DNA of 52,990 nucleotides from Sphingobium quisquiliarum P25 (lineage in GTDB: Bacteria > Pseudomonadota > Alphaproteobacteria > Sphingomonadales > Sphingomonadaceae), in the NCBI RefSeq assembly GCF_000445065.1, contig NZ_ATHO01000145.1:1-52990 (forward strand), written 5' to 3'. The notes under the pieces were generated by a model that had not been told where the DNA came from, did not search any database, and worked only from the letters and a program-made list of their open reading frames with translations. The translations under genes were made by a program, and so were the position numbers. This document shows, in pieces, positions 5,418-21,753 of the stretch (its first letter is position 1; every line of letters starts with the position of its first letter).

Positions 5418-5503
5418 CATCAATCACAATCCGGTTGCACGCGCCATGTCTCGCCGCCACCCTGCGCATATGGCGGCACGGCTGCCACGGCGGGAGAGGA
5501 TAT

Positions 5504-6577
5504 ATGGCGACGACGGCTGACTACAGGCTCGGCGAATTCACCTTTCCGCGCGGCTGGTTCATGGTCGCGCGCAGCGGCGAGGTGACGGCTGCTCCAGCGG
5601 CATTGCGGATGCTGGGGCGCGAACTGGTGATCTATCGCGGGGCGTCGGGACGCATCGTCCTGCTCGACGCTTATTGCCCGCACATGCAGGCGCATCTGGC
5701 GGCGGAACAGACATCGGGCGCGGCGGCGCAGAGGGTGGAAGGGGATTCGATCCGCTGCCCCTATCATAGCTGGCGCTTCGGGCCTGACGGGCGCTGCGAC
5801 CATATCCCCTATTTTGACGGCCCTATCCCGGCCGCCGCCCGGCTGCGTTCCTACCCGGTGCAGGAGGCGTTCGGTTGCGTCTTCGCCTGGCACGATCCCG
5901 AAGAGGGAGAGCCGGACTATGACCTGCCCGCTCTGCCCGAATGGTCGGACCCGCAATGGATAACCGGCGAATATGATGACCTTGGCACCTTGCCGGTCCA
6001 TCCGCAGGAGATACTCGACAATCTCGTGGACACGCGCCACTTCGGCCCCATCCATGGGCAGAAGCTCGCCTATTTCGACTCCGTGTTCGAAGGGGTGGTG
6101 GGACGGCAATTGTCGGGCGGCGGCCATGAAACCATGACCAGCGAGGAAGGCGTGCTGGATGTCGACGCCTTCTATACGGGCCCCGGCATATTGATCGCGC
6201 GCTATTCGGGCGAGACGGACGCGGTGCAGATCATCTGCCACACGCCCAAGGAAGATGGCGTGACGCAGGTCTGGCACGGCATATTGACGCGGGCGCGGAA
6301 CACGCCGCCATCGGCGGAGGATGTGGAACTGCGCAGCCAATATCATGCCGCCGGGTTGGGCGCTTTCTCGCAGGATTTCGCCATCTGGCGCACCAAGGGC
6401 CCGGCGATCAGCATATTGCGCCTGCCCACCGATGGCCCCTTTCACCGCAGCCGGGCCTGGTATCGCCAATTCTACAATCCGCGTGACAAGGCGCGGGAAA
6501 TCCAGTCGCGCGTCGATGGCGTGCACCACACCAGCGGCATGGCGGGCGCGCCCGGCCTCGCCGACGCTGCCGAGTGA
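5504..6577 (+). CDS. Rieske non-heme iron oxygenase, KshA-like
   Basis: This is a 357-residue terminal oxygenase. The Rieske [2Fe-2S] ligands are C58-x-H60 and C85-x-x-H88. The mononuclear iron site reads N173, D176, H179, H184 (DNLVDTRHFGPIHG), with D291 in SQDFAIW as the third ligand. The layout, and the C-terminal pattern of a Gly-Pro segment followed by a W-Y-x-Q-F-Y motif, resemble 3-ketosteroid 9alpha-hydroxylase oxygenase (KshA) and related sterol Rieske oxygenases. The start was set at MATTADYRLG, with GGGAGAGG 3 bases upstream; the frame is open further upstream but only across the regulator gene. An SDR follows closely. It would need an electron-transfer partner, and none is adjacent. 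The substrate is inferred to be polycyclic. Confidence 0.92.
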   Translation: MATTADYRLGEFTFPRGWFMVARSGEVTAAPAALRMLGRELVIYRGASGRIVLLDAYCPHMQAHLAAEQTSGAAAQRVEGDSIRCPYHSWRFGPDGRCDHIPYFDGPIPAAARLRSYPVQEAFGCVFAWHDPEEGEPDYDLPALPEWSDPQWITGEYDDLGTLPVHPQEILDNLVDTRHFGPIHGQKLAYFDSVFEGVVGRQLSGGGHETMTSEEGVLDVDAFYTGPGILIARYSGETDAVQIICHTPKEDGVTQVWHGILTRARNTPPSAEDVELRSQYHAAGLGAFSQDFAIWRTKGPAISILRLPTDGPFHRSRAWYRQFYNPRDKAREIQSRVDGVHHTSGMAGAPGLADAAE

Positions 6578-9043: not shown

Positions 9044-9889
9044 TCACGCAGGCTCCAGAGCAGGCTCCAGCGGCGCACGCCCGGCCCAATAGGCCCCTTC
9101 GCGATCGGTATTGACGTCCACCGCGCCGCGCACGCCCAGCGCCGCCCGCGCTTCTTCCAGCGGCAGGTGGAAGGCCGGTTCCAGCTTCTTCATGAACAGG
9201 GCGTCGCTTTCCTGCCCCACCCGCATTCCGCGCTGGATCGCATTCACGCAGGTCGGCCACACATGCGGGTAATGCAGCATGGTCCGCACCGTGTAGCGCA
9301 GCGATCCGAATAGCTGGATCAGGTTCAGTTCCGCCGCCAGTTCAGGGTTCTTGATGAAGCGCGGCACATTGGTCAGCCGATACCAGTAGGGAACCAGCTC
9401 ACCCATGAAGTTGAACCCGCCGCCGCACAATATATGTTCGAAATCATGGGTCTGGCCTGACCGCAGATTATAGAATTGCAATTGTGTCTGCGGCTGCGTC
9501 CACGGCGTGATCTGGATCTCGTAATTGCCGGACGTCATCTGCGCGTAGAATATGCCGCCCAGCGACCCCGGCGCATAATCCTTGAAATCCTCGATCTTGT
9601 AACTGGAAATGAAGCCTTCTTCGAACCATGCGTCCAGTTGCGGATTGACCTTGCGTTCCTGCGTGAACATCTCCTCCACCGCGTCGAAGTCGCGAAGCGA
9701 ATCCAGTATCGGCAGGAATTCGTACATCTCCGCCTGGGGTGGTATGTCCGCGCCATTCTTGCGCAGGCAGATCATCGCCAGCCATTCGCGCAGGCGCGGA
9801 TTGTTCAGATATTTGGATGACGACACCAGCACGCTGCTGTCGGTGCCCACCGGCATGACGCCGCGCATCAGATAGGGAAGCTCCGTCAT
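9044..9889 (-). CDS. Coq4-like protein
   Basis: The protein has 281 residues. It has the Coq4 metal-site signature H148-D149-x-x-H152 followed, after exactly eleven residues, by E164 (GQTHDFEHIL ... MGE). It shares TDSSVLVSSS, REW, RTMLHYP, WPT and VGQxSDxLF with the second Coq4-like protein at 14 kb. Coq4 is known from ubiquinone biosynthesis, where recent work links it to oxidative decarboxylation of the ring C1. Here it lies 12 bases behind a TauD-like dioxygenase gene, in a catabolic setting, so a role on a pathway intermediate is more likely than quinone synthesis. The start at the second ATG has GGAGG 6 bases upstream. It is longer than typical Coq4. Confidence 0.85.
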   Translation of the reverse strand: MTELPYLMRGVMPVGTDSSVLVSSSKYLNNPRLREWLAMICLRKNGADIPPQAEMYEFLPILDSLRDFDAVEEMFTQERKVNPQLDAWFEEGFISSYKIEDFKDYAPGSLGGIFYAQMTSGNYEIQITPWTQPQTQLQFYNLRSGQTHDFEHILCGGGFNFMGELVPYWYRLTNVPRFIKNPELAAELNLIQLFGSLRYTVRTMLHYPHVWPTCVNAIQRGMRVGQESDALFMKKLEPAFHLPLEEARAALGVRGAVDVNTDREGAYWAGRAPLEPALEPA

Positions 9890-9901
9890 CGCCATCCTCC
9901 G

Positions 9902-10765
9902 TCAGTTGAGTTCCAGCTTCTTGCCTGCCGATCCCCATGCGGCGATGCGCGGATCGTCCAGCTTGAATTGAGGCAGCAGTTCAAAGAAGCTCTTGTTGGC
10001 GACGCACACCCGCTGGAGCCGCCGCGGCGTCATGCCGGTCAGGTCGCAACGCGAATGCTGGAGCGCGATATTGTCCCAGATCAGCAAGTCGCCATTGTTC
10101 CAATGGTGGCGATAGATGCGGTCCCCGGCATAAAGCTCGTCGAACAATGCGGCCAGCAAGGCGTCGCTGTCCTTGCGCGGCAGGCCGTCGATCCGGGCGG
10201 TCTGCATGTCGCTGATGTAGAGCGTGGGTTCGCCGGTGCGCGGATGCGCGATCACCACCGGGCGCGTCTGCTGCGGCACGAAATCGGGCACGTCATATTC
10301 GACGGTGCGGTGCGACTGGATGAGCGCCAGCGCCGTCACGGCATCGCGTCCCTCGATCGCTTCGGCCAGGTCTTGCGGCAGGCGCTTCGCTGCCTCCACG
10401 CCGTTGGCGAAGGCGGTCCAGCTTTGCCCGTCATTCACCTCCACCGCATGCAGCGACAGAATCTTGAACGGGTCCTCCGTAAAGGCAAGGTCGCTGTGCC
10501 AGGTCAGCGGCCCCGACCCCAGATTGCCGTCGCTGGAAATCTGGCGATATTCGCCGGTCGATCCCAGCACCTTGCCGAACAGCGATAGGATGCGGACTTG
10601 CTGATCCTCGCCAAGCTGCTGGTCGCGGAACAGCAGCAGCTTATGTTCGTCGAACAGCGTCAGCATGCGCTGTTCAAAGCCATCGGGCAGCGGCGCGTCC
10701 AGGCGGATGCCGATCTCCATGCCGAACGGTTCGATCGGCCGTTCTTCCCACGCGTCTCCCGGCAT
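9902..10765 (-). CDS. TauD/TfdA-family Fe(II)/2-oxoglutarate dioxygenase
   Basis: The protein has 287 residues. It has the family's iron ligands HxD in TWHSDLAF and the distal His in ALQHSRCDL, with the 2-oxoglutarate-binding Arg expected in the RRLQRV segment after it. The N-terminal FDEHKLLLFRDQQL is also typical. The family hydroxylates sulfonates, aryloxyacids, carnitine precursors and other small acids. The substrate here is unknown. The start ATG is preceded by GGAGAGG. It is the first gene of a leftward pair with the Coq4-like gene and is divergent from the double-TetR regulator, with a 23-bp palindrome in between. Confidence 0.92.
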   Translation of the reverse strand: MPGDAWEERPIEPFGMEIGIRLDAPLPDGFEQRMLTLFDEHKLLLFRDQQLGEDQQVRILSLFGKVLGSTGEYRQISSDGNLGSGPLTWHSDLAFTEDPFKILSLHAVEVNDGQSWTAFANGVEAAKRLPQDLAEAIEGRDAVTALALIQSHRTVEYDVPDFVPQQTRPVVIAHPRTGEPTLYISDMQTARIDGLPRKDSDALLAALFDELYAGDRIYRHHWNNGDLLIWDNIALQHSRCDLTGMTPRRLQRVCVANKSFFELLPQFKLDDPRIAAWGSAGKKLELN

Positions 10766-10784
10766 AGCCTCTCCTCTGTCTTTC

Positions 10785-10807
10785 CCGAACGGTATCGAAC
10801 CGTTCGG
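10785..10807. promoter_or_regulatory. palindromic operator in the TauD/TetR divergent region
   Basis: CCGAACGGT and ACCGTTCGG form perfect 9-bp arms with a 5-base centre (ATCGA). The site lies 20 bases upstream of the TauD start and 69 bases upstream of the double-TetR start. This is the arrangement of a TetR-type autoregulatory operator. Confidence 0.7.
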
Positions 10808-10875
10808 CAGGCGTCAAGGCTGGCATGAAAGGGGGAGGGGGGTGCAAGCCGCGCCCAAGCTGATATAGCGGTCCC

Positions 10876-12159
10876 ATGGGGCAGCATCAGCGCGCGATTA
10901 CCGAAGAGGCCGGGACGGAGGGAGAGCCCCCGTCCCAACGCGTGCGCCATCTGCTGGCTGTCGCGCGGGCCGAGTTCGTGGCGCGCGGCTTCGATGCGGT
11001 CAGCATCGATGCGATTGCGCGCGCGGGCGGGGTCAGCAAGGAAACCATCTACCGCCATTTCGCCGACAAGGAGGCGCTGTTCCGCGCCGCGCTGGAGGCG
11101 GCGGGCGCGGAATTCACCGCCCGCGCGCAAGCGGTGCATCAGGCGGCGGCCCACCCGCGCATAGAACTGGCGGGTCTTGCCCGCACCATCATCGACGCGA
11201 CGGTCGATCAGGGCATGTTCAGCGTACTGTGGGTCGCCACCAGCGTGGCGCAGCGCATGCCGGACTTCGCTTCCCTGCTGCACGACCAGCAATGGACGCG
11301 GATGGAGCCGGTGCGGCTGGCGCTGGAGGAATATGCGCGGCAGCAGGGCTTGGGGCGGCATGTGCCGCTGGAGCTGGCGCTGGATTTCGGGTCGCTGGCG
11401 GTGGAAGGCCCGGCGATGCTGATGGGCTTCCCGCCACCGGCGGCGGCCGAGCGGGACAGGATGGCGGGACAGGCGGCGCTGCTCTTTTCCCAGGGGATCG
11501 GCCCGTGGATCGGCGAGGCTGGGTCTGGGGCTGAAGCTGGGGCTGCGGCAAACGAGGCCGCGCGTCCTGACAGCCTCTCCGGCCCGCCCGATCATATCCG
11601 CACCTTGCTGGACGTGGCGGCGCGCCATTTTCTGGAACAGGGCTTTGAAGGCGCGAATCTGGATGTGATCGGGGCCGAGGCGCGGGTGGGCCGGGGAACG
11701 CTCTACCGGCATTTCGGCAGCAAGGCCGGGCTGTTCGCGGCCGCCCTGCGCCAGCATGCGCGGCGGATGGCGGCGATCGCGGCGCCTCCTCCTCTGCCGG
11801 AAGGGCTGATGGACAGGGGCGCGCTGGAGGCATTTCTGGACAAGGCGATCGCCGCTCTTGCGTCCCTGCCCTCGATCCGGCTGCACAGGGCAGCGATCAG
11901 CCAGTCCCGCCGCGATCCCGAAACAGGCCGGGCGGTCTTCACCCTGTTGCGCGCGCCATGGGTGGATGCGCTGCTGCGCTGGCTTGCGCCGGTGAATGCG
12001 GGCGGGGACCGGGAATGGCTCGCGCGGCAATTGCTGGTGCTCGCCACGCGCGGCAATCGCCTGCTTGGCGCGGAACGGGTCGTATCGGCCACTGACCGGC
12101 GGCGCTATGCGGAACGCGCCGCCTCCATCTTCCTCGACGGCTTCACCAGCCTGCTCTGA
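10876..12159 (+). CDS. tandem-fused double TetR-family regulator
   Basis: One uninterrupted 427-residue frame contains two complete TetR-type DNA-binding domains. The first is at residues about 22-72 (VSIDAIARAGGVSKETIYRH) and the second at about 239-292 (NLDVIGAEARVGRGTLYRH), each followed by its own helical ligand-binding region. An Ala/Gly/Glu-rich linker (about 212-230) joins them. Ordinary TetR regulators have about 200 residues and one HTH, so this is a head-to-tail fusion or an intragenic duplication with divergence. It is divergent from the TauD-Coq4 pair across a 23-bp palindrome. No strong Shine-Dalgarno is visible before the ATG. A pseudo-dimeric single chain could recognise asymmetric or paired operators. 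Confidence 0.88.
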   Translation: MGQHQRAITEEAGTEGEPPSQRVRHLLAVARAEFVARGFDAVSIDAIARAGGVSKETIYRHFADKEALFRAALEAAGAEFTARAQAVHQAAAHPRIELAGLARTIIDATVDQGMFSVLWVATSVAQRMPDFASLLHDQQWTRMEPVRLALEEYARQQGLGRHVPLELALDFGSLAVEGPAMLMGFPPPAAAERDRMAGQAALLFSQGIGPWIGEAGSGAEAGAAANEAARPDSLSGPPDHIRTLLDVAARHFLEQGFEGANLDVIGAEARVGRGTLYRHFGSKAGLFAAALRQHARRMAAIAAPPPLPEGLMDRGALEAFLDKAIAALASLPSIRLHRAAISQSRRDPETGRAVFTLLRAPWVDALLRWLAPVNAGGDREWLARQLLVLATRGNRLLGAERVVSATDRRRYAERAASIFLDGFTSLL

Positions 12160-12210
12160 CCGCATTTTTCCGGGACCGTACGCCATATGCCGCAGCAGGG
12201 GAGTGACAGG

Positions 12211-12861
12211 ATGATGCAGCCTCCCGCAGCGCTTGCGCCGGGCCGGGCCGCCTATCTGGAACGCAGGCGCATCGCGACCCGCGCCGCGATCCTGGTGGCG
12301 GCGCGGCGGATATTTGCCGACGCTTCCTATGCCGATGCGAAGATAGACGACATCATCCGGGCGGCGGGGGTCAGCCGCGCGACCTTCTACTCCTATTTCG
12401 CGTCGAAGCTGGAACTTGCCTGCGCCATCTATGATGAGATCGCGCCCGAAACCGCTGCCCTGTTCGCGCGCCTGCCCGGTCAGTTGCGGCAGGGGAAAGG
12501 CGCGGTCCGCCAATGGCTGACGGACTTTGTCGGCATGCATCTGGAACATCGCTACGTGACGCCGCTGATCGCGCAATTGCAACTGTTCGAAAGCGGGTTC
12601 CGCGCGCGCATCCTCAAGGACACCGAGGCGCTGATCGATCTGGTGGCCAAGTCCGGCGATCCCGCCTTCGCCCGCGCGGCCGGGGAGGGGGACGACGCGC
12701 GGCGGCAAAGGATGCGCGTCCGCCTGCTGTTCAACCAGGCCGCTGGCGTTTGCGCCGGGATTGCGCGGGGCGAAATGCAGGGTGCGGACGCGGACATCTG
12801 CCTGGATATCATCTCGTCCGACATGCTGGACCTCTGGAACGAAGGCCGCTCTGGACAGTAA
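12211..12861 (+). CDS. TetR-family transcriptional regulator
   Basis: The protein has about 216 residues, with an N-terminal HTH (ATRAAILVAARRIFADASY, then IDDIIRAAGVSRATFYSYF) and a C-terminal helical ligand domain containing LLFNQAAGVCAG. The start at MMQPPAAL is favoured by GGGGAG about 7 bases upstream; an ATG eight codons earlier (12187) is possible. It lies 51 bases behind the double-TetR gene and 46 bases before the Gfo/Idh/MocA gene, so it may head the oxidoreductase-Coq4 operon or be its regulator. The ligand is unknown. Confidence 0.88.
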   Translation: MMQPPAALAPGRAAYLERRRIATRAAILVAARRIFADASYADAKIDDIIRAAGVSRATFYSYFASKLELACAIYDEIAPETAALFARLPGQLRQGKGAVRQWLTDFVGMHLEHRYVTPLIAQLQLFESGFRARILKDTEALIDLVAKSGDPAFARAAGEGDDARRQRMRVRLLFNQAAGVCAGIARGEMQGADADICLDIISSDMLDLWNEGRSGQ

Positions 12862-12907
12862 ACTAGACTCGCAGTATGGTCTGGGAAACAAGGCTGGAGA
12901 GGCAAAT

Positions 12908-14026
12908 ATGATCCGCGTGGGGATGGTCGGTGCGAACCCGGACTTTGGCTGGGGATCGGGCGTCCACCGCCGGGTGATCGATCATCTGCCCGGCTTCCGC
13001 CTGCATGGCGTGTGCACCACGCGGGAGGAAAGCGCCCGCCGCGCTTCGGAACAGTTTGGCGCGCCGCTCTGGACCATCGATCATGAAGAATTATGCGGAC
13101 ATCAGGACATTGATCTCGTCGCCATCTGTGTGAAGGTGCCGCACCATTATGCCATCGCGCGTGCGGCGCTTTCCGCGGGCAAGCATGTCTATTGCGAATG
13201 GCCGCTCGCCCTCACCGTGGATCAGGCGGAGGAGCTGGCGGCGCTGGCCGCCGCGCGCGGGGTGAAGGCGATGATCGGCCTGCACCTGCATGGCTCGCCC
13301 GCGTTGCGGCAGGCCGCGCGGCTGATCGCGGACGGCTATGTGGGGCAGCTTTACAGCCTGTCGCTGCATGCGCGCATGTTCGGCCCGGTCATGCGGGCGA
13401 TGGCGACGCGGGACGGGGGAACGACGCTGCTGTCCATCTATGGCGGCCATCTGCTCGATGCGGTGGATCATTATGGCGGCGGGATCGCGGATGTCGCGAT
13501 GCGCGGCGCGATCCATCTGCCGCCGGTGGACGAAACCGGCGCGCCGGTCGCCCGCGATGCGTTCGATCATCTGCAATTCCATGGCGCCCTGTCGAACGGG
13601 GCGCTGTTCAACCTTGATCTTGCGGGCGTGTCGATGACCGGCATGGGGTGCCTGTGGCGGATCGAGGGGAGCGAGGGCATGCTGACGCTCTCCACCCGCG
13701 ACCCCGCTGTGCCCGGCATAGAAGCGCTGCTATTGCATGGCGCTAGCAGGGGCGGCCCGCTTGAACCCATCGCCATCGATCCCGCGCTCGACTGCGCCGC
13801 CATCCCTCCGGCCCCCGATCGCTATGTCGCCTATCCCGGCTCCTTCGCATCGCGCGAGGCATTGAGTTCAATCGCTAGTTTATACACCGGACTGGGCGAA
13901 GCGATCCGCACGGACGGCCCGGTCGCGCCGGATTTTGGCCGTGCCGTGCATATCCAGCGGATGCTCGCCCGCTTCGACGGCGCCACGCCCGCTTCATTCC
14001 AACCGGATACCGGAGTTGCAGCATGA
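12908..14026 (+). CDS. Gfo/Idh/MocA-family oxidoreductase
   Basis: The protein has 372 residues. The N-terminal Rossmann domain starts MIRVGMVGAN. The nicotinamide-site motif EKP is changed to EWP (YCEWPLALTVDQAEELA), and the C-terminal alpha/beta domain carries GGTTLLSIYGGHLLDAVDH, where the active-site Lys/His region is expected. Families with this fold oxidise or reduce sugars, inositols and other hydroxylated rings with NAD(P). GGAGAGG precedes the ATG by 5 bases. The stop codon overlaps the start of the Coq4-like gene (ATGA), which indicates translational coupling and suggests the two act in consecutive steps. Confidence 0.9.
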   Translation: MIRVGMVGANPDFGWGSGVHRRVIDHLPGFRLHGVCTTREESARRASEQFGAPLWTIDHEELCGHQDIDLVAICVKVPHHYAIARAALSAGKHVYCEWPLALTVDQAEELAALAAARGVKAMIGLHLHGSPALRQAARLIADGYVGQLYSLSLHARMFGPVMRAMATRDGGTTLLSIYGGHLLDAVDHYGGGIADVAMRGAIHLPPVDETGAPVARDAFDHLQFHGALSNGALFNLDLAGVSMTGMGCLWRIEGSEGMLTLSTRDPAVPGIEALLLHGASRGGPLEPIAIDPALDCAAIPPAPDRYVAYPGSFASREALSSIASLYTGLGEAIRTDGPVAPDFGRAVHIQRMLARFDGATPASFQPDTGVAA

Positions 14027-14925
14027 AACCACAGCCCGAAAGCCTGGACACCGGCGCGGCGAACGAGGACGTCACCTCAGGCAGCCCCGTCTTCTACCTC
14101 AACGGCCGCCGCAAGGTGCGGACGGACAGCAGCGTGCTGGTGAGTTCGTCGCCCTGGCTCAACGATGCGCGGGTGAGGGAATGGGTCTCCACCGAAAGCC
14201 TGCGCCGCAACGGCCATGATTATCCGCTGCTCTATGGGCTGCCCACGCTGATGCAGGCGGTGGATGAGGTCAGCGACATCGATCATATCGAACGCTTGGC
14301 GGCGGAAGAACGCCGCCGCAACCCCGCCTTCGACCAGTGGCTCAGCGAAGCCTTCGTATCGACCTATGGCAAGGAGGACCTGCGCGGCTATCCCGCAGGA
14401 TCTGTGGGACGGCAATTGTTCGAATATATGGACGAGTTCGACCTGTCGCCGGAACTTAACTCCCGGCTGCTGAGCGATCCTGACTGGAAGCCCGCCAACA
14501 CGTTCGATTATTGGAACCTGCGCATGGGGCAGACCCATGACTGCTACCATATATTGGGCGAGATCGGCTTCGGATCAGTCGCCGAATATTTCATCACCGG
14601 CGTCGTGACCGGCAATGCCTTCCGTCATCTGGGCCCCGAACTGGCGGGAGCGCTGATGACGACCAATACGCTCATCATGTTTCCGTGGATGACGCGGACC
14701 ATGCTTCATTATCCGGGAGCATGGCCTACGCTGTGGCGGAATCTGAGCTATGGATATGAAGTCGGCCAGCAGTCGGACATGCTGTTCGCCGCGAAATTCG
14801 AAACCATCCTGCACCTGCAACCGGCGGAGGCGCGCGAAGCGCTGGGTTGGCGCGGCTTCAAGGGGCCGATGGACAGCAAGGAAGCATCGCTGATCTTCGG
14901 CGAAGGGCGCGAGATCATTCCCTGA
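14023..14925 (+). CDS. Coq4-like protein
   Basis: The protein has 300 residues. The metal-site signature is complete: H172-D173-x-x-H176, then exactly eleven residues to E188 (GQTHDCYHIL ... VAE). It is a divergent paralogue of the Coq4-like protein at 9 kb and has a longer N-terminus (about 22 extra residues before FYLNGRRKVRTDSSVLVSSS). It overlaps the Gfo/Idh/MocA oxidoreductase stop by 4 bases. Known Coq4 acts in ubiquinone head-group synthesis at the inner membrane. The catabolic neighbourhood, the second copy and the translational coupling to a dehydrogenase suggest an adapted role, perhaps decarboxylation or hydroxylation of a ring acid. That assignment is inference. Confidence 0.86.
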   Translation: MKPQPESLDTGAANEDVTSGSPVFYLNGRRKVRTDSSVLVSSSPWLNDARVREWVSTESLRRNGHDYPLLYGLPTLMQAVDEVSDIDHIERLAAEERRRNPAFDQWLSEAFVSTYGKEDLRGYPAGSVGRQLFEYMDEFDLSPELNSRLLSDPDWKPANTFDYWNLRMGQTHDCYHILGEIGFGSVAEYFITGVVTGNAFRHLGPELAGALMTTNTLIMFPWMTRTMLHYPGAWPTLWRNLSYGYEVGQQSDMLFAAKFETILHLQPAEAREALGWRGFKGPMDSKEASLIFGEGREIIP

Positions 14926-14971: not shown

Positions 14972-15691
14972 TCAGGCCTTGTCCAGATGGGCGAAGTCGA
15001 ACTGGCTGGTCGGAATGATGTCGATCCGCGAGAAGTCGATGAACCCGGCGCAACTGTCGGCCATGTCCTTCGTGTTCTTCGCGAACTTCTCCTCATCCCC
15101 CACCGCGTCGAAAAAGGCAGGGGAATCGGTCATCGCCTCCAGCGGGAAGCATTCCTCGACGAAGGCCCCGTAAAGCGGCGCGCCGCTGGTCAGCGGGCGG
15201 ACGACGATATTCTGGACATATTCGAAGTTGGCCTGGGTATCGATCGCCACGCGCGTGTGATGGCTGTGCCAGTGCGCCACCGCCGCTTCCCGGGTCATGT
15301 CGGGGCGGAAGGAAATGAAGCTCGCCTGCGACCAGCCCCAGGTGCGTTCCCCGGCATGGGGCGGATGCTCCTTATTGGGGATGATGGTGGATTCGGCGGT
15401 CAGCCATGCTTCGAACCGGCCGCTCACCGCGGCGAGCGCGGCGTCGATCCGTTCCCGGAAGATGGCGTTGGCCGACGGCAGCCAGAATTGCACCACTGCG
15501 TCCTGCTGCGGCTGCTGCCATTGCTGGACGAGCGGCGCGGCTGGCTCGACAGTAGCGTCGCGGATGTTAAGGCGGATGCCGCTCGCGCCCGCTGCCTTGA
15601 GGGCGTCCGGCAGTTCCGCCAGCAGGTGCGCGCCGAAGTCAGCCCGGCTCTCGCCTTGCGGCGCCCACAGGGCGCAGATCAGCTTTTCCAT
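14972..15691 (-). CDS. EthD-domain protein, apparently two-module
   Basis: The protein has 239 residues. The C-terminal half holds the EthD motif (MTREAAVAHWHSHHTRVAID) typical of dimeric alpha/beta-barrel proteins. The N-terminal half (MEKLICALWAPQGESRADF ... GIRLNI) looks like a second, degenerate copy, making the chain about twice the usual 100-120 residues. EthD was named for its need in ETBE oxidation by a P450, and most family members have no defined activity. A GGAGAG Shine-Dalgarno is clear. It follows an SDR gene by 27 bases on the same strand and is probably cotranscribed with it. Confidence 0.85.
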   Translation of the reverse strand: MEKLICALWAPQGESRADFGAHLLAELPDALKAAGASGIRLNIRDATVEPAAPLVQQWQQPQQDAVVQFWLPSANAIFRERIDAALAAVSGRFEAWLTAESTIIPNKEHPPHAGERTWGWSQASFISFRPDMTREAAVAHWHSHHTRVAIDTQANFEYVQNIVVRPLTSGAPLYGAFVEECFPLEAMTDSPAFFDAVGDEEKFAKNTKDMADSCAGFIDFSRIDIIPTSQFDFAHLDKA

Positions 15692-15718: not shown

Positions 15719-16480
15719 TCAGTCAAAATTGGCCTGGCCGCCGTCCAGCGGAATGGTTGCGCCCGTCAGATAGCCGAGGTCCGGCCCGCAAAGCGCGACG
15801 ATCGCGCGGCCGATATCCTCTTCCAGACGGCCTACCCGCCCCAGCGGAATGGTTCGGAAAAAAGCTTCCGCTTCATCGGGATTATGTTCGATCCACGCCT
15901 TTAGCCCCGGCGATTCCGCATGGGGGGCGATGGTGAGGACACGGATATTGTCGCGGCCCCATTCAGCCGCCGCTCCCCGCGTCAATGCCCGCGTCGCCTG
16001 CTTGATCGCGCCATAACAGGCATAGTTGCTCATGTCCCAGCGGATGCCCGCCGACGAGGCGAAGTTGAAGATGGTGCCGCCGCCCCGTTTCGCCATGTGC
16101 GGATGCACCAGCTTCATCAGGCGGAAGGATGCGAGCGGGCCTGATTCGAAACCGGCGGTAAAGGCTTCGTCGGTGACCTGATCGATCGGCCCCAGCGGCA
16201 CTTCCTGCGCATTGTTGACCAATATGTCGATGCCGCCAAATTCTGCCACGGCGCTGTCCACCGCCGCGGCAAGATCAGTGGAGGATTTGACATCACATGC
16301 GGCAGGAATGGCGCGCACGCCACGGCTGGCGGCAAGCCGTGCGGTCTCCTCCACCTTTTGCAGCGTGCGCCCGGCAAGCAGCAGGTCGACCCCTTCGCTC
16401 GCCAGCGCAAGGGCTATTCCCTGCCCGATACCCTGACCCGCGCCAGTGATAAGAGCGGCCTTTCCCCTTAAACCGGGCAT
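15719..16480 (-). CDS. short-chain dehydrogenase/reductase
   Basis: The protein has 253 residues and is a classical SDR: TGAGQGIGQG cofactor loop, NNAQ in place of NNAG, catalytic Ser in NFASSAGIRW, and YGAIK as the Tyr-x3-Lys motif. The C-terminus is LTGATIPLDGGQANFD. The start at MPGLRGKAALITG has AAGGA 8 bases upstream; a longer frame starting MFYQIRH adds 12 residues without a better site. It leads a leftward pair with the EthD-like gene and is divergent from the KstD-like flavoprotein gene. The SDR probably oxidises or reduces a hydroxyl or keto group on the pathway substrate. Confidence 0.92.
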   Translation of the reverse strand: MPGLRGKAALITGAGQGIGQGIALALASEGVDLLLAGRTLQKVEETARLAASRGVRAIPAACDVKSSTDLAAAVDSAVAEFGGIDILVNNAQEVPLGPIDQVTDEAFTAGFESGPLASFRLMKLVHPHMAKRGGGTIFNFASSAGIRWDMSNYACYGAIKQATRALTRGAAAEWGRDNIRVLTIAPHAESPGLKAWIEHNPDEAEAFFRTIPLGRVGRLEEDIGRAIVALCGPDLGYLTGATIPLDGGQANFD

Positions 16481-16600
16481 ATCCTCATTCCTTGAATGTC
16501 GTATCTGATAAAACAAATTCCTACGCGTATGTTGACTTTATGGCAAGATGAGGCGACGTCTGCGTGGATTTTGCGGGAGATATAGGGGTTATTCCGGCGT

Positions 16601-16630: not shown

Positions 16631-16658
16631 AGAGCTTTTCTATGTGCGGGCGGGCAGC

Positions 16659-18347
16659 ATGAGCGATTGGGACAAGGAAGTCGATATCCTGGTGATCGGG
16701 TCCGGGGCGGGGGGCTTGATGGCGGCGCTGGTGGGCGCGGACAATCGCGCCGACGTGCTGGTCGTGGAAAAGGCGGACAAGTGGGGCGGCACCTCGGCGA
16801 CTTCGGGCGGCGGCATCTGGATACCTGGCAGCGATGTCGCCAAGCAGGCGGGTTTCGAGGACAATCTGGACGACGCCTTTACCTATCTGCGCAAATTGTC
16901 GGCGGATAATGTGCCGGACGACAATATCCGTGCTTATGTTGACAATGCCGCGCCCATGCTGCGCTGGCTGATGGCGAACACGCCGGTCCAATATATGGCC
17001 TTTCCCTATCCCGACTATCATGCGGAAAATCCGGGTGGATCGGCGAAGGGCTTCCGCACCCATCTTCCATCCCCTCTGGACGGAAAGGCTCTGGGCGCGG
17101 ACATCCGCACGCTGCGGTTCGCATCGCCCGCCGCCAGCCTGTTCGGCTATCTGAATTGGCATTTCAGCGAAACCTATGAGCTGCTGTACCGGCAAAAGGG
17201 CTGGATGAAGAATCTGGTCAGGAACATGGCCAAATACTGGTTGGACCTGCCGTTCCGCCTGACATCGCGCAAGGATCGGCGCTTAACGCTGGGCAACGCC
17301 CTGGCTGGCGGTTTGCGGATGGCGCTCAATTGCAAGGGCGTGCCGCTATGGCTGGAAACGCCGCTCAAGGAACTGGTGCGCGAAGGCGACGCAGTAACGG
17401 GCGCTGTCGTCGAAAAGGGCGGCAAGCCCTACCGCATCCGGGCGCGCAAGGGCATTGTGCTGGCGGCGGGCGGTTTCGACAAGAACCAAGCCATGCGCGC
17501 GGACAACGCGCCGCTCTATCCGGCGGCGCGCTATTCGGGCGGCGTGACCAGCAACACCGGCGACAGCATCGTCGCGGGCGAAGCCATCGGCGCTGGCACG
17601 ATGAACATGCAGTCGGCCTGGGCCGCGCCAGTCTTCTACGTGCCGGGCGAGGATCGCGGACGGCTATGCACCGTCGAACGCGCCTTGCCGGGCTGCATCA
17701 TGGTGAACCAGAGCGGGGAGCGTTTCCTCAACGAAGCCGCGTCCTACCATGTCGTCGGCCAGCAAATGGCCCGCCGTCAGGCCGAACATGGCGACGCCGA
17801 TCCGTGCTGGATGATCTTCGACCATGAATACCGGCACAAGTTCCCGATGGGTCCGCTTTATCCGCTGATGCCCACGGCGATGCATGGCAAGGGCGTGCGT
17901 TCCATCCTGAAGAAGGGCCGCTCGATCGAGGAACTGGCGGGCAGGATCGGCGTCGATCCGGCGCGGCTGTCGGCGGCGGTCAGCCGGTTCAACGCGGGGG
18001 CGGCCAAGGGCGAGGACCCGGAATTCCACCGGGGCGAGGCCGCTTATGACAAGATGTACGGCGACTTCCGGCACCAGCCCAACCCCTGCCTGCGTCCGCT
18101 GGACAAAGGCCCTTTCTACGCAATGCCGATCTATCCGGGGGACATCGGCACCAATGGCGGGCTGATGACCAACGCCAGGGGACAGGTGGTGGACGGCGAA
18201 GGAAAGGCGATCCCCGGCCTCTATGCGGTCGGCAACAATGCCGCGTCGGCTATGGGGGAAAGCTATCCGGGCGCGGGTGTCACGCTGGGACCAGCCCTGA
18301 CCTTCGGCTATGTCGCCGCGCGGCACATGACCGGGGGGAATGCCTGA
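16659..18347 (+). CDS. FAD-dependent 3-ketosteroid Delta1-dehydrogenase-like protein
   Basis: The protein has 562 residues. The N-terminal FAD motif is DILVIGSGAGGLMAAL, followed by the family's TSATSGGGIWIPG loop. The C-terminal substrate and FAD region reads GPFYAMPIYPGDIGTNGG and then SYPGAGVTLGPALTFGY, very like 3-oxosteroid 1-dehydrogenase (KstD); Y487 sits in the PFY motif where KstD has a catalytic Tyr. The family introduces a C1-C2 double bond into 3-ketosteroids, but related members act on other cyclic ketones or as fumarate reductases. The start at MSDWDKEVD lacks a strong Shine-Dalgarno. It is divergent from an SDR-EthD pair. Confidence 0.85.
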   Translation: MSDWDKEVDILVIGSGAGGLMAALVGADNRADVLVVEKADKWGGTSATSGGGIWIPGSDVAKQAGFEDNLDDAFTYLRKLSADNVPDDNIRAYVDNAAPMLRWLMANTPVQYMAFPYPDYHAENPGGSAKGFRTHLPSPLDGKALGADIRTLRFASPAASLFGYLNWHFSETYELLYRQKGWMKNLVRNMAKYWLDLPFRLTSRKDRRLTLGNALAGGLRMALNCKGVPLWLETPLKELVREGDAVTGAVVEKGGKPYRIRARKGIVLAAGGFDKNQAMRADNAPLYPAARYSGGVTSNTGDSIVAGEAIGAGTMNMQSAWAAPVFYVPGEDRGRLCTVERALPGCIMVNQSGERFLNEAASYHVVGQQMARRQAEHGDADPCWMIFDHEYRHKFPMGPLYPLMPTAMHGKGVRSILKKGRSIEELAGRIGVDPARLSAAVSRFNAGAAKGEDPEFHRGEAAYDKMYGDFRHQPNPCLRPLDKGPFYAMPIYPGDIGTNGGLMTNARGQVVDGEGKAIPGLYAVGNNAASAMGESYPGAGVTLGPALTFGYVAARHMTGGNA

Positions 18348-20403: not shown

Positions 20404-21579
20404 CTAAACGATGTAACGCTGGCGGTAGGCGGCGAATGCCTGCTTGATTTCCTCTTCGTCCAGGCCGAAGCGCTCCAGCGAATAGTCGTGCATCGGCCGC
20501 TGCTCGCGCTTGTTGCCTGCCAGGAATTCCGTGAGCGCTGCTTCCAGACGATCATCGACCGGGATGCCGATGCGTGACAGGACGCGCTGCGCCTGATTCA
20601 TCGGGTCCTTGCCCACATCCTTGTAGCTTATATCGATGAAGCGATCCTCGCCGATCCGTTCGCGCGCGGCTTCGAACATGCGCATCCATTCGGCCAGGCG
20701 CGGAAACCAGAAGCCGCTGACATCCCTGTCGGAGACGGTCGCGCTCAGCTTGTAGAGCGCGGCCTGCATCGAAATGTAGGACGGCACGGTTTCCACGGGA
20801 TCGCGATGCGTCATGATCAGCAGGGCGTTGGGAAAGGCCTTCGCCGCGACCTCCACATAGGGAAGGTTGGACGGGCTTTTCAAAATCCACTTCGCTCCCC
20901 GCCGTGACGGGTCCTGCCATTGAAGATATTGGAGGATGGTCTTCAAATCCTCATGCCCGCGCGATTGATCATAACCGTTCAGCCACCGCGCGAAGCTGGG
21001 AACGAAGTTCATCCCTTCGATCATGGTGCTGACGAACATCTGGCCCAGCACCAGTATCTCTTCGTCCGGTGCGTCGGGATCGAGCGGGTGGATGGAGGCG
21101 AGTTCGGGCGACAATTGCAGCCAGCCATCGATCATCGCCTGCGCATAGGCGCGCCGCTCGACGGGATTGCCGCGGTCTTCGCCGGGGAAGGGGGCGACAT
21201 TCTGCGCCTCATACCAGCGAAGGCCGGTCATGCCCGGCGCGCTGGCCAGCAGGCGCTGGAAGATGGTGCTGCCGGTGCGCGGCAGGCCCAGGATGATGCC
21301 CGCGACCTCCACCTTCTCATCCAGTATTTCGGGATGGCGCTTGATGTCCTCCACCATGCGCAAGCGGCTGACCAGCCCCTTGACGACCACCTCCGTCATT
21401 GATGCGACCCCTGCGGGCGTCAGGCGGCCTTCCCGGTTGGACGCCTCGATATAGCGGTCCATCGGCTCGATGAACCAGAGGTCGCCGAAATCGGACAGCC
21501 CCGCACGCTCGCGCGCCTGCTGGAGGAGCTGTTCGCGGTCAAGGAGCGCGCTGTCTGCGATGGGTAGGGAAGAAGGCAT
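20404..21579 (-). CDS. sulfotransferase-family protein
   Basis: The protein has 391 residues. The 5'-phosphosulfate loop is LGLPRTGSTIFQRLL (about 98-111) and the 3'-phosphate region is LLIMTHRDPVETVPS, both matching PAPS-dependent sulfotransferases (Sulfotransfer_3 type). The N-terminal LSDFGDLWFIEPMDRYIEASNREGRL is conserved in a subfamily common in actinobacteria and sphingomonads near lipid and steroid genes. It is expected to move a sulfuryl group from PAPS to an alcohol, though activity of this subfamily is rarely shown. The start at MPSSLPIAD has GAG 8 bases upstream. It is divergent from the NTF2-VOC-MFS operon across 281 bases. Confidence 0.88.
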   Translation of the reverse strand: MPSSLPIADSALLDREQLLQQARERAGLSDFGDLWFIEPMDRYIEASNREGRLTPAGVASMTEVVVKGLVSRLRMVEDIKRHPEILDEKVEVAGIILGLPRTGSTIFQRLLASAPGMTGLRWYEAQNVAPFPGEDRGNPVERRAYAQAMIDGWLQLSPELASIHPLDPDAPDEEILVLGQMFVSTMIEGMNFVPSFARWLNGYDQSRGHEDLKTILQYLQWQDPSRRGAKWILKSPSNLPYVEVAAKAFPNALLIMTHRDPVETVPSYISMQAALYKLSATVSDRDVSGFWFPRLAEWMRMFEAARERIGEDRFIDISYKDVGKDPMNQAQRVLSRIGIPVDDRLEAALTEFLAGNKREQRPMHDYSLERFGLDEEEIKQAFAAYRQRYIV

Positions 21580-21753
21580 TAGGGTCACTCTTGTTGATGA
21601 TGGGCCGTGAAGGGAGCGCAGGCAGGCATGCGGGGGCACAAGCGCCGATGCTCCTTGTAGAATATCATATTTGCATCCTCATCCCGCAGGCTGCCCCGCC
21701 GCCTTTTTCACCGCTTCAGAATCTCTCTCCGTCACGCGTTGTCAATCAATACT

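Follow-up and report, generated by a model that had tools for sequence, protein, structure and literature searches.

Two Coq4-like genes and their partners

We analysed a window of 52,990 nucleotides from Sphingobium quisquiliarum P25 (contig NZ_ATHO01000145.1, positions 1 to 52,990), which carries two genes for relatives of Coq4, a protein that normally takes part in building the respiratory carrier ubiquinone. The first (type A) lies at 9044..9895 on the reverse strand and encodes 283 residues; the second (type B) lies at 14023..14925 on the forward strand and encodes 300 residues, both where an initial annotation made from the sequence alone had placed them. As it had claimed, both keep the HDxxH-x11-E metal signature exactly, HDFEHILCGGGFNFMGE starting at residue 150 in type A and HDCYHILGEIGFGSVAE starting at residue 172 in type B, and they have further motifs in common: the two proteins are 39% identical across 256 columns, among them an N-terminal TDSSVLVSSS block that had gone unnamed. 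The label “Coq4-like” is borne out by motif and homology, but the proteins score only 17.7 and 18.2 bits with the Pfam Coq4 model (PF05019), short of its curated cut-off of 22.9, so we treat them as divergent relatives rather than plain Coq4. A third copy of the same branch, on contig C71 of this genome (type C), reaches 28.7 bits with PF05019 and has a 4-base overlap with an amidohydrolase-type frame.

Each window copy has a close partner gene, and regulators lie between the two pairs, as the initial annotation had described. Upstream of type A, a TauD/TfdA-type dioxygenase gene (9902..10765, reverse strand; 148.7 bits with PF02668) ends 6 bases before the type A start; a true taurine dioxygenase TauD is ruled out by a score of 79.1 bits with the NCBIfam equivalog, whose cut-off is 313. 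Type B is coupled by an ATGA overlap at 14023-14026 to a Gfo/Idh/MocA oxidoreductase gene (12908..14026, forward strand, start inferred; 83.2 bits with PF01408). The intervening regulators are two forward-strand TetR genes, one encoding 427 residues with two TetR_N stretches in a single chain (10876..12159) and one (12187..12861) whose protein cluster also adjoins type B at loci L005, L052, L053 and L057. Long TetR regulators of about 417-433 residues adjoin type A and type C copies, examples besides the window gene being L001 2182-3483, Novosphingobium aromaticivorans SARO_RS20420 and Sphingobium herbicidovorans B6S01_RS18840; both long proteins that we scanned hold two TetR_N stretches.

A separate branch of the Coq4 superfamily

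The initial annotation had suggested a Coq4-family phylogeny as a check, and in our tree the window copies group apart from the usual single-copy sphingomonad Coq4, the two sets being split at 100/100; the score gap between a profile of the branch and one of usual Coq4 is consistent with this split. The tree took in 99 of 108 candidate rows (104 open reading frames, or ORFs, plus four halves of fusion proteins, whose long branches make their placement unsure), the nine rows with a matched part shorter than 200 residues being left out: six from the branch, and L089, L092 and L093. These last three represent a further Coq4 group with HDxxH, weak on both profiles and not placed in the tree. Within the branch several sets are well supported, including types A, B and C, named here for the first window copy, the second and the C71 copy, as well as two sets that are mostly linked to AtuA and one of tandem pairs. 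For the usual-Coq4 profile we took 11 of the 20 non-branch Coq4 ORFs, leaving out five missed by the gene caller, L089, L092 and L093, which looked different, and one of two L097 genes. Coq4 counts are based on six-frame ORFs because our codon-usage caller missed some genes, for instance type A at L005.

The metal signature is present in 81 of 84 branch ORFs, that is, in every member reaching the site, and in 18 of the 20 other Coq4 ORFs. As a chance control, it occurs in 101 of the 2510 six-frame ORFs that measure 200 residues or more at the loci used; since 99 Coq4-type ORFs bear it, one of them shorter than 200 residues, about three unrelated ORFs do so. The branch proteins are predicted to adopt the all-helical Coq4 fold, with one structure model (P0002) compared by Foldseek only, and a branch-only profile matched the solved Coq4-type structures 3msq (E 4.8e-24) and 6e12 (E 1.1e-12).

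Partner genes differ between the sets. For 63 of the 84 branch genes (68 loci), a partner of one of the types searched for lies on the same strand no more than 200 bases away, measured to the matched protein parts; for the other 21 there is none. Amidohydrolases (Amidohydro_3) and AtuA are commonest: Amidohydro_3 stands downstream of 18 branch genes (one also with TauD upstream) and upstream of 15, AtuA upstream of 12 and Gfo/Idh/MocA upstream of six, and 11 are partnered by a flavin mononucleotide (FMN) dehydrogenase or a second Coq4-like gene. The pairing with a TauD-type gene that the initial annotation stressed is thus real in the window but rare elsewhere: TauD is within 200 bases of only 2/84 branch genes, which rules it out as the standard partner, and is the sole typed partner of one, the window copy itself. 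Among 19 records of type A plasmid places we examined four; TauD adjoins the copy at two of them, pMSHV of S. herbicidovorans and pTomTYG65a, each with the order TauD, type A, amidohydrolase, and does not adjoin it at the other two. In the S. quisquiliarum genome the run seems to be broken up, since the best match to that amidohydrolase (81% identical) is found at the edge of contig C61.

Steroid genes and the proposed role

An indication of function is the gene that converges on type B. It encodes a 239-residue EthD-domain protein (14972..15691, reverse strand) that shares 79% identity with the counterpart from Sphingobium sp. Chol11, where the gene is likewise convergent to a type B orthologue. 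All eight hsh3 primers printed in PMC12175502 match exactly, in their gene-specific parts, in or around that Chol11 gene, which identifies it as the gene for the characterised 7beta-hydroxysteroid dehydratase Hsh3 (PMC12175502); we accordingly assign the window gene as an Hsh3 orthologue. Of the homologues named in the same paper, that of S. herbicidovorans (WP_234810817.1) is also a convergent neighbour of type B, and that of N. aromaticivorans (WP_011906908.1) lies on pNL2, in a 49 kb stretch where HsaA-like, HsaC-like and Rieske genes and two Coq4-like genes are also found. The surroundings of type A in Novosphingobium sp. ES2-1 include a FadD3 ligase gene three genes away (665.6 bits, cut-off 657) and, nearby, a gene whose annotation is steroid delta-isomerase. 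At loci L018 and L007, HsaA-like and HsaC-like genes are found within three genes of type A; their L018 scores, 376.6 and 255.1 bits, do not reach the cut-off of 450, and those at L007 and on pNL2 likewise stay under the equivalog cut-offs.

In a survey of 149 Sphingomonadaceae genomes, the family of the window, the branch (E 1e-20) is present in 14, from 12 genera, with up to eight copies per genome. Hsh3-like genes occur in 13 genomes, 12 of which also carry the branch (Fisher test, 7e-15); HsaA-like genes occur in 17 genomes at 1e-100 (12 with the branch, 3e-12) and in 32 at 1e-60 (again 12, 1e-7). In branch genomes, a copy lies no further than 20 kb from 9 of 17 Hsh3-like genes, against an expectation of about 1.0, and no further than 50 kb from 12 of the 17, against 2.4, counted on 69 of 70 branch rows with a gene split over two rows (in G135) counted once.

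In our reading, to which we give a probability of roughly 0.55, the two proteins, as members of this Coq4 branch, are likely metal-dependent enzymes of steroid catabolism, predicted to replace a carboxyl by a hydroxyl group. The catabolic setting proposed by the initial annotation is backed through the Hsh3 neighbour and the co-occurrence, but with steroids in place of simple ring acids, which nothing in the neighbourhood favours over steroids. Human COQ4 is reported to be an oxidative decarboxylase that replaces a carboxyl by a hydroxyl in one step (PMC11495197). By analogy the branch enzymes, with the same metal site, would use iron and O2 to decarboxylate a steroid acid oxidatively or to hydroxylate it. 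Sphingomonadaceae are described as lacking most known side-chain enzymes and as using yet unknown ones for side-chain removal (PMC8399759), which makes this the most plausible place for the step; the substrate would be a steroid intermediate, most plausibly an acid from side-chain removal. The coupled partner, whether amidohydrolase, AtuA, Gfo/Idh/MocA or FMN dehydrogenase, may act on the compound in the step that immediately precedes or follows that of the Coq4-like protein. Bolder, and in our estimate rather doubtful, is the idea that the Coq4 fold was recruited as a whole family of O2-dependent decarboxylating hydroxylases, its branches each with their own hydrolase or dehydrogenase, that performs the missing side-chain removal in sphingomonad degradation of bile acids and sapogenins.

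Several points weigh against a role in steroid catabolism. Kinship is not corrected for in the Fisher values, and 1e-100 was picked as the HsaA threshold after the list had been seen, the association falling to 1e-7 at 1e-60. Two genomes (G012 and G016) carry the branch without an Hsh3-like or HsaA-like match, and one (G033) carries both kinds of gene without the branch. Proximity to HsaA-like genes is not clear: of 23 such genes, 3 have a copy within 20 kb (1.3 expected) and 8 within 50 kb (3.1 expected), which we count as weak support. The HsaA search gave no match in the window, where HsaC was not searched for; two HsaA matches lie on other contigs of this genome. The Hsh3 homologue of C. 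tardaugens is not cholate-induced, and the bacterial steroid literature examined does not, among the matches listed, contain the word Coq4.

Other genes of the window include one assigned by protein clustering to the short-chain dehydrogenases (15719..16516, reverse strand), which adjoins the Hsh3-like gene here as in Chol11 and S. herbicidovorans; a gene for a flavin adenine dinucleotide (FAD) enzyme like 3-ketosteroid delta-1-dehydrogenase (16644..18347, forward strand), scoring 498.7 bits against a curated cut-off of 788; and one for a Rieske oxygenase with a KshA_C domain (5465..6577, forward strand, start approximate; 184.2 bits with PF19298). That several steroid-type neighbours fall below curated cut-offs would fit an alternative in which the copies serve the catabolism of another hydrophobic ring compound, a terpenoid or polycyclic aromatic, and lie near steroid genes only since sphingomonad megaplasmids gather catabolic clusters. 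AtuA, a frequent partner, is named for terpene use, the several types are each bound to a different partner, and G012 and G016 have the branch alone. Against this, 12 of the 14 branch genomes carry Hsh3-like genes, these lie close to the copies far beyond the expected count, and carriers include the bile-salt degraders Chol11, S. herbicidovorans MH and N. aromaticivorans (PMC12175502). We consider this alternative unlikely, if to be taken seriously.

Two further features recur in these clusters. A sulfotransferase-family gene is found near the Hsh3-like gene in the window (20404-21639), in L052 (15261-16445) and in the pNL2 and pMSHV clusters. An esterase labelled chloramphenicol hydrolase (pNL2 284248-285171, in L106; L012 9039-9968) may, given the cluster setting, have a steroid ester as its natural substrate.

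A non-catalytic role for the proteins, binding hydrophobic intermediates or acting as a scaffold for them, is improbable; such a view was proposed for Coq4, and the scaffold role is given in PMC8969065. Oleic acid and magnesium in the solved structure of Alr8543 would suit such a role, as would the database proteins P0006 and P0112, in each of which two Coq4-like halves are fused and one of them lacks HDxxH. The other half of each fusion is nevertheless intact, an architecture that fits a working half with a helper half, and a binder would sit poorly with a signature preserved wherever the site is reached and with the decarboxylase activity reported for human COQ4 (PMC11495197).

Some features of the genome itself would fit a role in ubiquinone synthesis. 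Neither UbiD nor, with the Pfam model or the usual-Coq4 profile, a separate usual Coq4 was found in it, the latter absence being one half of what the initial annotation had named as evidence against its proposal; COQ7 and a UbiH-type hydroxylase are present, so that some decarboxylase acting at ring carbon 1 is missing from view. Usual Coq4 (best E below 1e-50) is likewise missing in 10 of the 14 branch genomes versus 70 of 135 others. However, two congeners that are 99-100% complete (G076 and G144) have no Coq4 match with three profiles and no UbiD, so ubiquinone synthesis in the genus does not seem to depend on the copies, an unlikely role for them. That they perform the step at ring carbon 1 in place of UbiD and usual Coq4, both missing here, is very improbable, given also the four genomes with both branch and usual Coq4, the presence of up to eight copies in branch genomes and the co-occurrence with Hsh3-like genes. 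Usual Coq4 was found in 69 of the 149 genomes and UbiD in seven; since 64, including G076 and G144, have neither a Coq4 match at E 0.01 nor UbiD, and 78, G000 included, have neither UbiD nor usual Coq4, a further enzyme for this decarboxylation may be in use in the family.

Comparison with known systems

Among the matches listed in the open-licence literature, preprints excluded, we found no description of bacterial catabolism that involves a Coq4-like protein and nothing linking Coq4, steroids and Novosphingobium; a genome paper on an oil degrader records the Coq4 COG twice without a role (PMC10710014). A steroid-degrading branch would be a candidate for unassigned steps of bacterial steroid breakdown such as side-chain removal (PMC8399759). 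The chemistry of COQ4 was assigned only recently (PMC11495197), and a catabolic branch, whose genes culturable strains can probably do without, would offer a second system for its study, one that is not essential.

A close counterpart of the type B side of the window is the Chol11 Hsh3 locus, where TetR, Gfo/Idh/MocA and type B genes are likewise followed by EthD and short-chain dehydrogenase genes on the opposite strand; PMC12175502 describes Hsh3, and the term Coq4 is absent from its text. The pMSHV and pTomTYG65a runs resemble the type A side of the window, with a TauD-type gene before type A and a divergent long TetR gene, and differ in having the amidohydrolase adjacent. Compared with COQ4/Coq4 proper (PF05019), the branch has the same predicted fold, metal site and profile homology to solved Coq4-type structures, but its two window members lie below the Pfam cut-off, and it holds a separate tree position, has its own N-terminal TDSSVLVSSS block, and occurs among catabolic neighbours in up to eight copies per genome. 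The nearest description of a Coq4 fold put to other use is that of the COQ4-like paralogue of shikonin-making Boraginales, which is also proposed to have shifted from ubiquinone to another pathway; there the setting is a plant and biosynthetic, and the role was inferred from coexpression and a tree (PMC8969065), whereas the branch described here would serve catabolism in bacteria.

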